Below are positions 4,283 through 13,687 of a stretch of DNA of 62,970 nt, in pieces. Each line of letters starts with the position of its first letter. The stretch's first letter is position 1. Under the pieces are notes generated by a model, which was not told the origin of the DNA, did no database searches, and saw only the letters and a list, made by a program, of their open reading frames with translations. This stretch comes from Halonatronum saccharophilum DSM 13868 (GTDB taxonomy: Bacteria; Bacillota; Halanaerobiia; Halobacteroidales; Halobacteroidaceae). The stretch covers positions 609,943-672,912 of the forward strand of contig NZ_KI912097.1 of assembly GCF_000517025.1 (NCBI RefSeq), read 5' to 3'. A program made the translations under genes and the position numbers.

Positions 4283-4997
4283 GTTGTTAGAAAAAATATT
4301 TATTGAGAGTGGATTTCGGATTTATTATCCTAAATTTTTAGAAGATGGTCAAAATAAAAATTTTTTTGCTGTCAATGAAAGCATTAATAAAAAAGAGTAT
4401 TTTTTAATAACTTTTTTTGATTATATTAGTAAGAAGAAATTGACAGATTTAATAAATCGACAAGCTTTTGAATACTATTCAAATTTAAAAAAGCTTAGTT
4501 TTTATGAGAAAGAGATGCAGAAAAATACATCTTTAATCATCTGTTTAAAAGAAAAAAAATTAACACTAGATAGAGATAAAAAGAAATCTATTTATGAAGT
4601 AGAAGAAGATTTATATAATTTTAAAAAATATGTTTTAGTTTATACAGAAAGGCAAATACAAGATTTTGAATCTAATTATATAACTTATAAGCCTAGAGAA
4701 ATTAAGTTAATAAAACATCTTCAAAATATTTTAAACAATTCTAAATCATTTAAACAATTTAAGTTTAATCTAGAGGAAGATACATTCTATAATTTAATCA
4801 CTAAACTATTTATAAAACTTCCTTTTTTAAATTTAAAAACATTAAAATCTGCAACATTGGAAAATTTGGAACAAAAAATAAAAGAAGAATTAAAGATTAT
4901 CGAGACATTTGATTTTATTGATACTATATTACAGAAAAATGAAATAGAAGATATGGATGAGGAAAATTTTCTGAGTGAAATTGGGGTGATAGAGTGA
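4275..4997 (+). CDS. Middle component of ABC-three-component-like operon
   Basis: 240 aa from ATG 4275, which overlaps the stop of the upstream gene and sits 10 nt after AGAGGAG; a GTG at 4269 is the alternative. The N-terminus (KIFIESGFRIYYPKFLEDG) is followed by alternating beta and alpha segments, with an acidic C-terminal tail. No catalytic motif is visible. Proteins of this size between a nuclease-like gene and an SMC/Rad50-like ATPase are the 'middle component' of ABC-three-component systems. I assign it from position and length, not from a recognised domain. Its stop overlaps the ATPase start (GTGA), indicating translational coupling. Confidence 0.5.
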   Translation: MNKLLEKIFIESGFRIYYPKFLEDGQNKNFFAVNESINKKEYFLITFFDYISKKKLTDLINRQAFEYYSNLKKLSFYEKEMQKNTSLIICLKEKKLTLDRDKKKSIYEVEEDLYNFKKYVLVYTERQIQDFESNYITYKPREIKLIKHLQNILNNSKSFKQFKFNLEEDTFYNLITKLFIKLPFLNLKTLKSATLENLEQKIKEELKIIETFDFIDTILQKNEIEDMDEENFLSEIGVIE

Positions 4998-7387
4998 GTA
5001 AATATAGGATAAATAAATTATATATAAATAATTTCAAGTTATTTGAAGAAGTAAAAATTGATTTTTCTAAAGGTGATATAATAATTTTAGATGGACCTAA
5101 TGGCTTTGGAAAAACTACCATCTTTGATGCGATAGAATTATTATTAACTGGAAAAATATCTAGGATGGTTGATGTTGCAGATAATAGACGTGGATGTCAT
5201 GATATTATAATTTGTAATGATGAGAATGAAGATGTATTGATTAAAGTTGAATTTGAATCATTAGAGGATAAATTTACTTTAATAAAAAAGATTGATAATA
5301 AAAACATTGAATATACCAATATGGATAGGAGGAGTTCTGAATTAAATAAATTATTTAAAACTTATAAGGTAAAAGAATTTGATTCTGAATTTAATGATAA
5401 TAAAGAAATTGAACAAAAAGATGTAGATAAATTATTTGATATAGATTTATCTAGATTTTATAGCTTATTTTATTATATTCAGCAGGAAGACAATACTTAT
5501 TTTTTAAAGAAAAATGAAAAAGAAAGAATGGATACTATAAAATATTTATTTGATACATATAAAGAAGAAAATGAATTAAAAAAATTGGAAAAAGCAAAAA
5601 ATAAATTATTAAGAATATATAAAAAAATTATGAAAAAAAAGAAGATATAAAAGAAAATATAAAGCTAAAAACAAAAATATTTCAAAAATACAAGAAGCAG
5701 ATGAAAATATTAGCTATAAATGTTTGTTTCCCGAACTAAAAATATCAAAAGAATGGGACAGAAAAAGAATAAATGTTGAGTCTAAGAAGAAAAAGGATAA
5801 ATATAAAAGGGAATTAGATGCCATTGAAAATTTTATAAAATATTTTTCAGAATTTAAGAAGGATCAATTTAATAAGAAATTAAAACTTCGATTAGAGGAT
5901 ACAAAATTACTAAAAGATACAATTATTATAGCAAACTTTATTGATGGATTTGATAAAATAAAGTAAAATATCAGATTCAAAAAAGATTAGAAAAATATAA
6001 CAAAATATTAAAAAGTAAAAAAATAGAAGATATTAATAAAAAAATTGATTTAAAAAAGTTACCTAAAAAGCTTAAACTAAATGTTGATATAAATAATATT
6101 AATCAGAAATTAAATAGTATCTTGAAATATAAAGAAAATTCTTCTGAGCTATCTAAGTTAGTTGATGAATTAAATATAACAAGGAGTTCATTAAAAGATC
6201 AATTTAATAAAATAACTAATGAAAATAATAATATAATTAATAATAGATGTCCATTATGTGGTTATGGTTGGGAGAATTATAATAAATTAATTAAACAAAT
6301 TGAAAAGAAAAAGAAGAAATTTATTGTTTTTTGTGATGAAACAATGAAAAAAGTTCAAAAAGAAATAGAAGAATTATATAGTAATCACCTAGAAGGATTA
6401 ATTTCAAGTATTGATAATTATTTAGATAAAGAAGAGAATAAAATTAACAATAATTTTTATAAGCAGTTAAGTAGTAGTTATAATAGAGTAGACAAAGTTA
6501 AAAGCTTAATTAAATTTTGTAAAAACCAAAGAATTAATTTAACAAAACACATTAATAAAAAAATTAATAGAACTATAGGAAATATCGATGAGGAAGTAGA
6601 AAAATTAAAAGAAGAGATTCGGAAAAGACATAAAATAGTTAATGAAGAATATTATTACAAAAGAAATGAAGATAATTTTGACTATTTATATAAAGAGTTA
6701 TTTAATGAAAAAGAGAAAAATGTATCAAATTTAAATATAAAACTTATAAAGCAGAAGAAATCTTATATTGATTATTTATATTACAATAATGTTATTCAAG
6801 AAATTAAAAATATGGAAGAAAATAAAGAAAAATTGGAATCTAAACTAGAAAAAATAGAAGATAAATTAAAGTCTTTAAAAAGTAGTATTAAAATTTATAA
6901 CACTTGTATAAAAGAACATTGGGGTAAAATAATTAAAAAAGTTGAGATTCCGTTCTACATATACAGTGGTAAAATTATACAAGACTATCAAAGAGGAATA
7001 GGTATATTTATAAAAGGAAGTGAAGATAAAGAAGAACTAGATAGTATAAAGTTTGTACCTAATCTAAAGACGGATCATGATGTAATAAATTATTTAAGTT
7101 CTGGTCAGTTATCTGGATTAGTAATAGCATTTACTTTGGCACTTAATAAAGTTTATGGTAATAGAAAATTAACAACTGTTTTAATAGATGATCCGGTGCA
7201 AACAATGGATGATATTAATATGGCTTGTTTTGTAGAAGTATTAAGAAATGAATTCTCAAACAAACAAATTATTATGTCGACTCATGAAGATAATGTTTCA
7301 ATGTATATGAGATATAAATTTGCTAAATATAACTTAAAGCAAGTTAGATTTAATGTAAAAGAAAGGCTTAATGATGTTTTAGGTTAA
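4994..7387 (+). pseudogene. Rad50/SMC-like ABC ATPase with two compensating frameshifts
   Basis: The reading frame starts at GTG 4994 and shifts +1 near an A8 tract (5633-5640). It then shifts back by -1 near AAAA at about 5948-5955, so the total length still equals 798 codons. The N-terminal part has Walker A GPNGFGKT (34-41). The middle is coiled-coil with a zinc-hook-like CPLCGYGW encoded near 6249. The C-terminal part has the ABC signature LSSGQLSG, Walker B TVLIDDP and an H-loop MSTHED. This is the ATPase of the operon, expected to work with the two preceding proteins in DNA sensing or processing. Either the ATPase is inactivated, or the frames come from homopolymer errors or from slippage. 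All catalytic motifs survive and only about 110 coiled-coil codons lie in the shifted frame. Confidence 0.75.
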
Positions 7388-7445
7388 TTAACTATAATTT
7401 AAAATAGTATAAACAGATTAAACTTCAGATAACATAAGGTTAGCG

Positions 7446-9319
7446 GTGCGATTTGTTGTAATTTGAAAAGAATTACCTAAAACTGATAAATGTTTTAGAA
7501 CTAAAAGACTTGACTAATCAAATGAAGAGGTAACGCCCTGAGAGAAGCGATTTTTGCTTCTTGAGGAAGTACTCTTGGGGTGCGCCTGGAAGGGTTAGAG
7601 TTGATACTCCGAACTGCAAAGTTATTATTAAGAATTACTTTGTGGTAGAGCTCGGTAAAGTCGGCTGAGAGCAACCCCTAATTATAGGAAATGTAGCTAG
7701 AGGTAGCCAAGGTTGTGATAGGTCGGACACCCATAAAATATCCAAGACTAGAATGTCTTTGTGAGAGACTGACGAAATTCCGAATGTACAGGTCTAAAGT
7801 TCAAATAACTAGAAATAGTTATATCCCTTATAGGCTTAACAACCTAACGTAATAAATTCACGGAGATTGAAGTATCTGAGGTTAAGTAAGATTCGCTAAT
7901 ATGAACAACCTTATATGATTACAGGTCATATCAAGGATACAGGCTTATAGGAGTGGTCTAAAGATATATGTACGGGAAAAGTCTTTTGGAACAAAGAAAG
8001 CTAATAACAAGGAGAGCTTAATCTCAATGAATTGGTGATAGAGTAAGGAATATATAATCTATCTTTATATTAGTGAGAGTAGTGGCACAGTACCTATGAA
8101 ACTATGATAATAAATAGTGGAGGGATAGCCATAAGTGAAATAAAATGATAATAAAAGTTATTAATATAGTAGTGCGACTTGTTGCTAAATGAAAAGTTTA
8201 GCCTAACAATGAAGTTAGAACTAAAAGACTTATTAGTCAAATGAAAGGGTAACACCTTGAAGGGCTAACAATGATACTCCGAATTGCATTATCTAAATTA
8301 AGATAGATAATGTAATAAGCTCGGTGAAGTCGGCTGAGAGCAACCCCTAATTATAGGAAAAGTGGCTAGAGGTAGTCAAGGTTGTGATAGGTCGGTTGCC
8401 TATAAAATATCTATGATTAGAATGTAGGATAATATCCTACTGACAAATCTCTGAATGTACAGGTCTAAAATTCAAATAATCAGAAATGATTATGCCAACA
8501 AAGTTTTGGCGTATATGGGGTGAGTAAGATTTGCTGTTATGAAAGTCCTTATATCCTTATAGGGGATATACTCTTAATAGAGATATACAGGCTTATAGGA
8601 GAAATCTAAGGATATATGTAAAGGTAAAGTCTTTTGGAACAAGGAAAGCTAATAACACGGAGGTCTTAATACCTATGAAGTGGTGGTATGGAAACTAATT
8701 ATAGATAACATACCTTAATATTAGTGAGAGTAGTGGTAAAGTACCGTTGAAACCTTGATAATAAGAGGTGGAGGAATAGCCACAAGTCAATGTATTAGAT
8801 TAATATAATTTTATTATTTAACACATAAGGTTCTGGTGAGACTAAGAGAGCAGGGTTAATTCCCGAAGACAGGCTTCTATAGGAACAACTAAAGGAAGTT
8901 CTAAGCGACTTATGACTACACTTAGAGAAACTTTGAGGAGCTACACACAAGCTATGAGCCAGAGTTTCGAGTTCTAAGTTAGGAAATAGTAAAATCCACA
9001 TAATTTAATACACTTGATGGAACGCCGTGTGAGGTGAAAGTCTCACGCACGGTGTGGAGCGGGGGAAAAGTTGGAGATAATATCAAATTCTTACCTATCG
9101 TTATCATTGGTTTCTGGTGAGACTAAAAGAAAGTTAGGGAAGAAAGTTTTATCTTCCAATCCTTGCCCAATGGGACTTCAATAGAAGTTTTCAGCTATAT
9201 ATGATAAATAGTAATAATTATCTTATTTTCATAGAACGCCTTGTGAAGTTGAAAACTTCATGCAGGGTGTGGAGCAGGGGAAAAAGCGGAGATAATATCA
9301 AAGTTTTACCTATTGCTAT
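7446..9319 (+). ncRNA. Outer group II intron of a twintron, interrupted at 8171/8172
   Basis: The 5' end is GTGCGATTTG at 7446. Domains I-III run to about 8135, and the sequence breaks off in domain IV at 8171. It resumes at 9105 with CATTGGTTTCTGGTGAGAC, domain V at about 9234-9272 (AACGCCTTGTGAAGTTGAAA...) and ends CTATTGCTAT at 9319. The break holds a complete second intron of the same class. Equivalent blocks in the inner intron (AGCCATAAGT versus AGCCACAAGT, and the shared TTCTGGTGAGACTAA word) let the two halves be matched. No reverse transcriptase frame exists in either intron. The site lies between the ATPase gene and the transferase-like gene at 9412. Confidence 0.75.
8172..9104 (+). 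ncRNA. Inner group II intron of a twintron
   Basis: It starts GTGCGACTTG (8172) and has domain V at about 9021-9057 (AACGCCGTGTGAGG, TGAAAG, TCTCACGCACGGTGTGG). It ends CTATCGTTAT at 9104, matching the CTATTGCTAT end of the outer intron. Its length is about 933 nt with no open frame of its own. It is closely related to the intron that contains it: both carry GGCTAGAGGTAG and TTGTGATAGGTCGG (near 7687-7734 and 8351-8395). It is inserted in the outer intron's domain IV, a position that often tolerates insertions. Confidence 0.75.
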
Positions 9320-12479: not shown

Positions 12480-13687
12480 ATGCACGGATAGTGCAAAAAA
12501 TAAATGACACATATGAATACCTCATATATAATGTTAAATAACCACAAATAACATAAAGTGAGGTATTGATATGTGCCAAGATAATTATAACACAAATGAG
12601 AACAAAGGTGAACACTTAAAATGGGAAGATAGAAAAGTAATAGAACACTTGTATAATCAACAAAACAAGTCTCCCAAAGAGATTGCACAAGAGTTAGGTA
12701 GACATAGAACTACAATAAGCAGAGAGGTTAAAAAAGGCAAAATAGAGCTATTAAATTGGGACTATACAATTAGAATAGAATATGATGCATTAAAGGTTCA
12801 AAAGGTATATGATCAAAATGCTACAGCTAAAGGAGCTAAAATAAAAATAGGTAAAGATCACAGGTTAGCTGAGTTTATAGAGGAAAAAATCAAAGATAAG
12901 TATTCTCCAGAAGTAATTGCAGATATGATAAAAAATAGTGAAGATTTTGAAATAGAATTACATTGGAAGACTATCTATAATTATATAGATAAAGGCATCC
13001 TATTTGTAAGTAGAGAAGAGTTGACCTATGGTAATTATAAAAAGTCTAAAAAGACAAAGAAGAAAGAAAAAGAATACAACTAAAAGACGTAAAGAAGGTA
13101 GAAGAATATCAGATAGGCCTAAAGCAGCTGATGAGAGGTTAGAAGTAGGTCATTGGGAAATGGATCTAGTAGAGGGTAGAAAGGGAAAGGAGAGCCTTTC
13201 TTATTAGTTCTAACGGAGAGGTATAGTAGAAAAGAAATAATAGAGATTATACCTAATAAGACGCAGGAAGCTGTAATAAGAGGTCTGGATCGAATAGAAA
13301 GAAGAATAGGAGTAAAGAAGTTTAGAGAATTGTTCAAGACTATTACAACTGATAATGGGAAAGAATTTTATAACTATACAGGAATAGAGACTTCTTTTAC
13401 AAGAAGTAAAATTCCAAGGACAAAGCAATATTATGCTGATGCTTACTCTTCTTGGCAAAGAGGGAGTAATGAGAACTTAAATAAAATGATTAGAAGGTTT
13501 TTGCCAAAAGGAAGTAGCTTTAAGAATCTTAGTAGAAATCAAATTAAAAGAATTGAAAAATGGATTAATAATTATCCTAGGAAGATGTTTGGTTTTAAAA
13601 GTTCTAATAATATATTTGAAATAGGTTTAAATGTAGCATAAATAAACACATCATATGAGGTGTTTTTTTCCATAAAGGCTGTGCATT
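12480..13687 (+). mobile_element. IS30-family-like insertion sequence
   Basis: Imperfect terminal inverted repeats begin AATGCACGGATAGTGCAAAA on the left and, reverse-complemented, AATGCACAGCCTTTATGG on the right. The element encodes one transposase on the + strand, broken by two frameshifts. It is about 1.2 kb, normal for IS30 elements, and sits between hsdM and hsdS without disrupting either. Exact ends and target duplication are uncertain. Confidence 0.7.
12571..13641 (+). pseudogene. IS30-type transposase, frameshifted
   Basis: The first part (from ATG 12571) carries a helix-turn-helix, KSPKEIAQELGRHRTTISRE. A +1 shift in an A-rich stretch just before 13080 leads into RRISDRPKAADERLEVGHWE, with the first catalytic Asp in HWEMDLVEG. 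A -1 shift near 13195 restores the original frame, giving LLVLTERYSRKEI, TTDNGKEF (second Asp) and RGSNENLNKM (catalytic Glu). Joined, it is about 356 codons, normal for IS30 transposases. The DDE residues are all present, but as read the gene cannot make one intact protein. Confidence 0.8.

Follow-up and report, generated by a model that had tools for sequence, protein, structure and literature searches.

A complete group II intron (positions 8172-9104) lies inside a related group II intron (7446-8171 plus 9105-9319) in the 62,970-nucleotide stretch of Halonatronum saccharophilum DSM 13868 DNA analysed here, called the window below. The locus is a rare bacterial "intron within an intron", with the insertion placed where the gene of the helper protein normally sits. 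We put a probability of roughly 0.85 on the reading that this twintron formed by retrohoming between sister introns, both descended by ORF loss from RT/HNH-encoding introns. Its parts are given here, with L046 denoting a related intron from another genus of the same family.

7446-8171, plus strand: 5′ part of the outer ORF-less group II intron (domains I-III and the first part of domain IV), by its GTGCG start, the RF02004 match at 7496-7737 and the family alignment
8172-9104, plus strand: complete inner ORF-less group II intron, by the RF02004 match at 8216-8406, the RF00029 match at 9020-9104 and the empty site in L046
9105-9319, plus strand: 3′ part of the outer intron (remaining domain IV, domains V and VI), by the RF00029 match at 9234-9319 and homology to the 3′ part of L046

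The window was searched with cmscan against the Rfam models, and all four matches exceeded the curated cut-offs. The group-II-D1D4-5 model (RF02004) matched at 7496-7737 (E 2e-24) and at 8216-8406 (E 5e-34), and the Intron_gpII model of domain V/VI (RF00029) matched at 9020-9104 (E 6e-10) and at 9234-9319 (E 4e-6); two blocks of 5′ domains are followed by two domain V/VI blocks, which is a nested order. GTGCG starts occurred at 7446 (outer) and 8172 (inner), and both introns ended in TAT, with CTATCGTTAT at 9104 (inner) and CTATTGCTAT at 9319 (outer). Each intron therefore had the GUGYG start, 5′ domains, domain V/VI and AY end of a group II member. Once rejoined, the outer intron measured 941 nt and aligned over its full length with the inner intron of 933 nt, the whole nested unit spanning 1874 nt, and no ORF of at least 80 aa was found in either intron. 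Isolated folding of domains V/VI was partly informative, as the minimum free energy structure of the inner domain V missed the canonical upper stem. The outer domain V is one base longer than the inner one; the idea that it is degenerate was dropped, because this length is common to most relatives. The initial annotation had described two ORF-less introns of one class, nested, with GTGCG starts and a domain V each, and both the Rfam matches and the alignment bore this out, with coordinates exact to the base; the covariance-model search that it had proposed recovered two 5′ and two 3′ halves in nested order.

Direct and decisive evidence that 8172-9104 is an insertion came from L046 (G002, positions 794-1642), an ORF-less relative of 849 bases with an empty site at exactly these boundaries. 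L046 is continuous across the insertion point, TTATTAATATAGTA running straight into CATTGGTTTC with no base added or lost, and its outer domain IV without the insert reads GAAATAAAATGATAATAAAAGTTATTAATATAGTA joined to CATTGGTTTCT. The window and L046 agreed at 44 of the 45 bases immediately preceding the junction. As judged from this empty site and the continuous alignment, removal of the inner intron leaves an intact outer intron. A tandem arrangement of two introns, which the initial annotation had named as the outcome that would speak against nesting, was ruled out by the domain order together with the empty site, and its placing of the insertion in the outer domain IV agreed with the uninterrupted counterpart in L046, which has the same boundaries. 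A search for the 20-base target TAAAAGTTATTAATATAGTA in 84,980 named genomes, among which the genome analysed here and its neighbours may be missing, returned four chance matches, none of them surrounded by an intron. Viral contigs held no match to the outer 3′ side of the empty site, and plasmid and phage records held partial relatives only, no record covering 80% of the pair.

The junctions were then assessed through guide pairing in ten family introns at different insertion sites. EBS1 was read as six bases at an offset of nine from where the AGTAAGAT motif starts and was compared with the last six bases of the 5′ exon. At this offset 55 of 60 EBS1-IBS1 positions paired, versus 20-34 at the other offsets tried; when exons were swapped among introns the mean was 29.3, and none of 20,000 permutations reached 55. 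Pairing across all ten introns thus fixed the junctions. For EBS2-IBS2, whose register was the best of an offset scan, 39 of 50 family positions paired, versus 23.4 by permutation (0 of 5,000 as good); the inner intron contributed 4/5 pairs and the outer only 3/5. Elsewhere in the window, only 31 of the 121,718 sites equalled the inner intron's target in quality, as did two of about 930 within the outer intron. The guide elements are as follows.

7440-7445, plus strand: IBS1 of the outer intron, TTAGCG, 6/6 pairs with the outer EBS1 CGCTAA
7893-7898, plus strand: EBS1 of the outer intron, CGCTAA, at the nine-base offset from the start of the AGTAAGAT anchor
8161-8165, plus strand: IBS2 of the inner intron, TTAAT, 4/5 pairs with EBS2 ATTCA
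8166-8171, plus strand: IBS1 of the inner intron, ATAGTA, inside the outer domain IV, 6/6 pairs (two of them G-U) with the inner EBS1
8470-8474, plus strand: EBS2 of the inner intron, ATTCA, at an eight-base offset from the start of GGTCTA
8532-8537, plus strand: EBS1 of the inner intron, TGCTGT, pairing with ATAGTA
8596, plus strand: putative EBS3 of the inner intron, T, facing C at 9105, a mismatch

EBS3 was sought by scanning 873 alignment columns of nine introns for a match to the first base of the 3′ exon, which varies within the family (A, T, C and G all occur). A single column (outer position 503, inner position 425, within GGCTTATAGG) matched in seven of the nine introns, or in eight when G-U was allowed, and it changed on both sides in L048 (A-T) and L051 (G-C). 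We infer this column to be EBS3. In the outer intron it pairs, T facing A, and the inner intron, with a U-C mismatch, was the only exception among the nine at this putative position. The mismatch would be a weakness for splicing and not a loss of group II identity.

Intact relatives of the same class carry about 1.8 kb between their 5′ domains and domain V, and their domain IV encodes a protein of about 620 aa with a match to TIGR04416, the group II RT/maturase family; its C terminus, HNH-like by eye, also matches IscB weakly. Local alignment with L045, L048 and L051 located what is left of this gene in the inner intron:

8912-9010, plus strand: vestige of the lost IEP gene, made up of the start region ATGACTACACTTAG and a C-terminal codon remnant

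The start region, GCGACTTATGACTACACTTAG, runs for 22 codons before a stop, and vestiges of both ends of the IEP gene are still in place before domain V. Because remnants of both gene ends persist, the inner intron is an ORF-deletion derivative. For the outer intron, the short domain IV shared with L046 suggests that ORF loss probably happened before these genera diverged or was acquired horizontally.

The guide pairing, together with the clean junction, leads us to infer reverse splicing into domain IV. The RNA of the ORF-less inner intron would have entered the domain IV loop of its ORF-less sister, guided by pairing of EBS1 and EBS2 with the target TTAATATAGTA, and a cognate IEP would have acted in trans at that time and since been lost from the genome or hidden in an assembly gap. 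The genome, 99% complete, encodes three RTs of group II introns, and contig C3 has a further, weak RT match. Identity between the three RTs and the family IEP is 34-38% locally and 27-33% overall, compared with 68% between two IEPs of the family; all three belong to other lineages, and none lies within an intron of the twintron's family. No cognate IEP gene that could serve in trans, nor any fragment of one, was found in this genome, with the caveat that several introns are at or close to scaffold gaps and that such a gap may hide one. The maturase that the initial annotation had expected in trans thus found no counterpart here, and, since the genome offers no cognate IEP, present-day splicing and mobility are uncertain.

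Other copies in the same genome bear on how the pair arose. A second junction between inner intron and outer 3′ part lies on contig C8 at 94988-95763 (L014, 10989-11764). Compared with the window, it showed no difference in 561 inner bases and nine in 215 outer bases (p 9e-6). Identical inner introns within diverged outers are expected if the inner intron inserted separately into outers that had already diverged, and the same pattern in Thermosynechococcus elongatus was read as separate recent insertions (PMC2882425). Gene conversion or assembly collapse of repeats could give the same pattern, and repeat collapse could inflate the 100% identity of the second copy, whose 5′ side is a 100-N scaffold gap at 94888-94987 that starts just after a sequence resembling the outer 5′ exon (GGATAACATAGGCTTGA). 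A third outer copy (C8, 454210) has no inner intron and breaks off inside domain IV. The assembly shows it two times around a further gap; the two versions differ at one of 478 bases, share an unchanged upstream flank for at least 300 bases and probably represent one locus. Truncated relatives are scattered through the same genome. On contig C8, several copies of group II introns lie at 100-N scaffold gaps or close to them (L014, L015, L016 and L017); because of such gaps, intron counts in this assembly are lower bounds.

Three further intron observations were made alongside. In the window, about 260-1043 holds an ORF-less group II intron or remnant of another lineage (RF02003 at 314-450, domain V/VI at 953-1042), as does 2082-2615 (domain V/VI at 2539-2615). 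At L014 7779-7860 and L015 8476-8560, one intron's 3′ end (CTACCAGAT) runs into an internal point (AGCGAAGCTGGACATATCC) of an intron of the other lineage; this chimeric junction uses the same internal point at both loci, and in the window copy that point lies in a hairpin loop. At L052 (G001, contig C20, reverse strand), a full IEP-bearing family intron directly follows the first 21 bases of another, GTGCGACTTGTTGCGATATGA adjoining GTGCGACTTGTTG, with 6/6 EBS1 and 5/5 EBS2 pairs at the junction; the remainder of the first intron is missing, and the host gene is an IS607-type transposase by eye.

No gene depends on removal of the twintron, as it lies between genes, with 58 bases separating it from the stop codon of a split SMC/ATPase gene. 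That gene belongs to an ABC-3C/Lamassu-like defence system upstream and is broken into several ORFs (pieces at 4994-5650, 5724-5966 and 6122-7387, together window 4994-7387), through frameshifts or as a pseudogene. Just downstream are a weak TIR-like match and then a type I RM system, in keeping with the defence island noted at the outset of this work; its hsdM and hsdS are separated by transposase-like ORFs in two pieces (window 12571-13641, by eye IS30-like).

The catalytic core of group II introns does not include domain IV. Because this domain is non-core and carries the ORF of about 1.8 kb in relatives, an inner intron at this place should not block folding of the outer one, which could splice with the inner still in place. 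The ribozymes may still splice, the inner first and then the outer; or the outer may leave alone as one 1874-nt intron carrying the inner; or the two 3′ ends may be used in mixed ways. Sequential splicing would be obligatory with an insert in an essential part, and the insertion here is in domain IV. The ordered splicing that the initial annotation had considered necessary is therefore possible in its inner-first form and not required.

Three rival explanations of the locus were weighed. An assembly artefact fusing two intron copies draws on the 100-N gaps at or near several introns, but the window contains no N, the inner-outer junction recurs at the second locus with nine differences in its outer part, and the boundary coincides with both the empty site of another genus and an EBS-matched target; we give this explanation almost no credence. 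The locus might instead be an alternative splicing unit, with several copies of domain V/VI available to a single 5′ half. Mixed use would be possible with two sites of each kind, 5′ and 3′, in a row, and Clostridium tetani C.te.I1 uses several V/VI repeats (PMC3919590, PMC4424553). Here, however, there are two complete 5′ halves whose EBS1 each match their own 5′ exon, taking out 8172-9104 restores the exact L046 sequence, and the sites lack flanking coding exons. Furthermore, the outer 5′ part scored 969.5 against L046 when joined to the outer 3′ part and 891 when joined to the inner 3′ part. Such a unit is thus very improbable.

More weight goes to a dead relic, a real nested insertion in which splicing of at least one intron has ceased. 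It is a serious rival, at somewhat below even odds, given the mismatch at the inner EBS3 and the lack of a cognate IEP, and the intergenic position, with no gene to keep intact, and the truncated relatives that litter the genome point the same way. Against it, the 5′ domains and domain V/VI lie above the Rfam cut-offs in both introns, EBS1 pairs 6/6 in both, and the second inner copy is identical over 561 bases. That both ORF-less sisters would still splice as an orphan twintron with no cognate maturase, by self-splicing or with host factors, stepwise or as one composite, appears rather unlikely from these sequences. The origin by retrohoming between sister introns remains our preferred account of how the nesting arose.

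Dai and Zimmerly reportedly described in 2003, going by the title of their paper, homing into related intron ORFs in Methanosarcina acetivorans. The nested introns of that archaeon are, like the pair described here, related group II introns that home into each other with no coding exons around, but they form arrays of up to five (PMC4424553, PMC2882425). The twintron mechanism is not new, being known in T. elongatus, Trichodesmium, Wolbachia (named in PMC8919778, whose list of intron-bearing genomes also includes Halobacteroides halobius) and Methanosarcina. The initial annotation had called the locus unusual; bacterial and archaeal twintrons with ORF-less partners were already published (PMC2882425, PMC4424553), and what stands is that both halves are ORF-less and apparently orphaned, which makes the locus notable. 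We found no description of a bacterial pair with both parts ORF-less and no cognate IEP in the genome, and make no claim to a first report.

A close likeness is TeI4::TeI3 of T. elongatus, in which a related outer intron harbours an ORF-less inner intron at a single position of its domain IV, inner copies are identical and outers diverged, and the ORF-less form arose by ORF deletion (PMC2882425). The outer intron there, however, carries an IEP, one that is potentially active in most copies, and the TeI4c IEP can serve both partners (PMC2882425), whereas here both introns are ORF-less and no cognate IEP was found in the genome. Tr.e.I7/I8 of Trichodesmium erythraeum is likewise a bacterial group II twintron, but it joins distantly related introns, each with an IEP ORF, the inner one in domain I, within a protein gene (PMC4649490). 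Sequential splicing was shown for that pair (PMC4649490); the present one is inserted in domain IV, intergenic and ORF-less. ORF-less bacterial introns are rare and nearly always occur alongside related IEP-bearing introns, the only exception named being C. tetani C.te.I1 (PMC4424553). C.te.I1 resembles the present case as an ORF-less intron in a genome with no matching IEP, but it is a single intron with repeated V/VI used alternatively, and its genome has no IEP-related gene at all (PMC3919590), whereas IEPs of other lineages are present here. To ORF-less introns in genomes that lack a related IEP, the Halonatronum locus would add a nested, traceable pair. Its empty site, its guide pairing and what is left of the lost gene can all be seen; a domain IV emptied of its ORF has become a landing site for sister introns, and the question of whether orphan introns keep splicing becomes testable.
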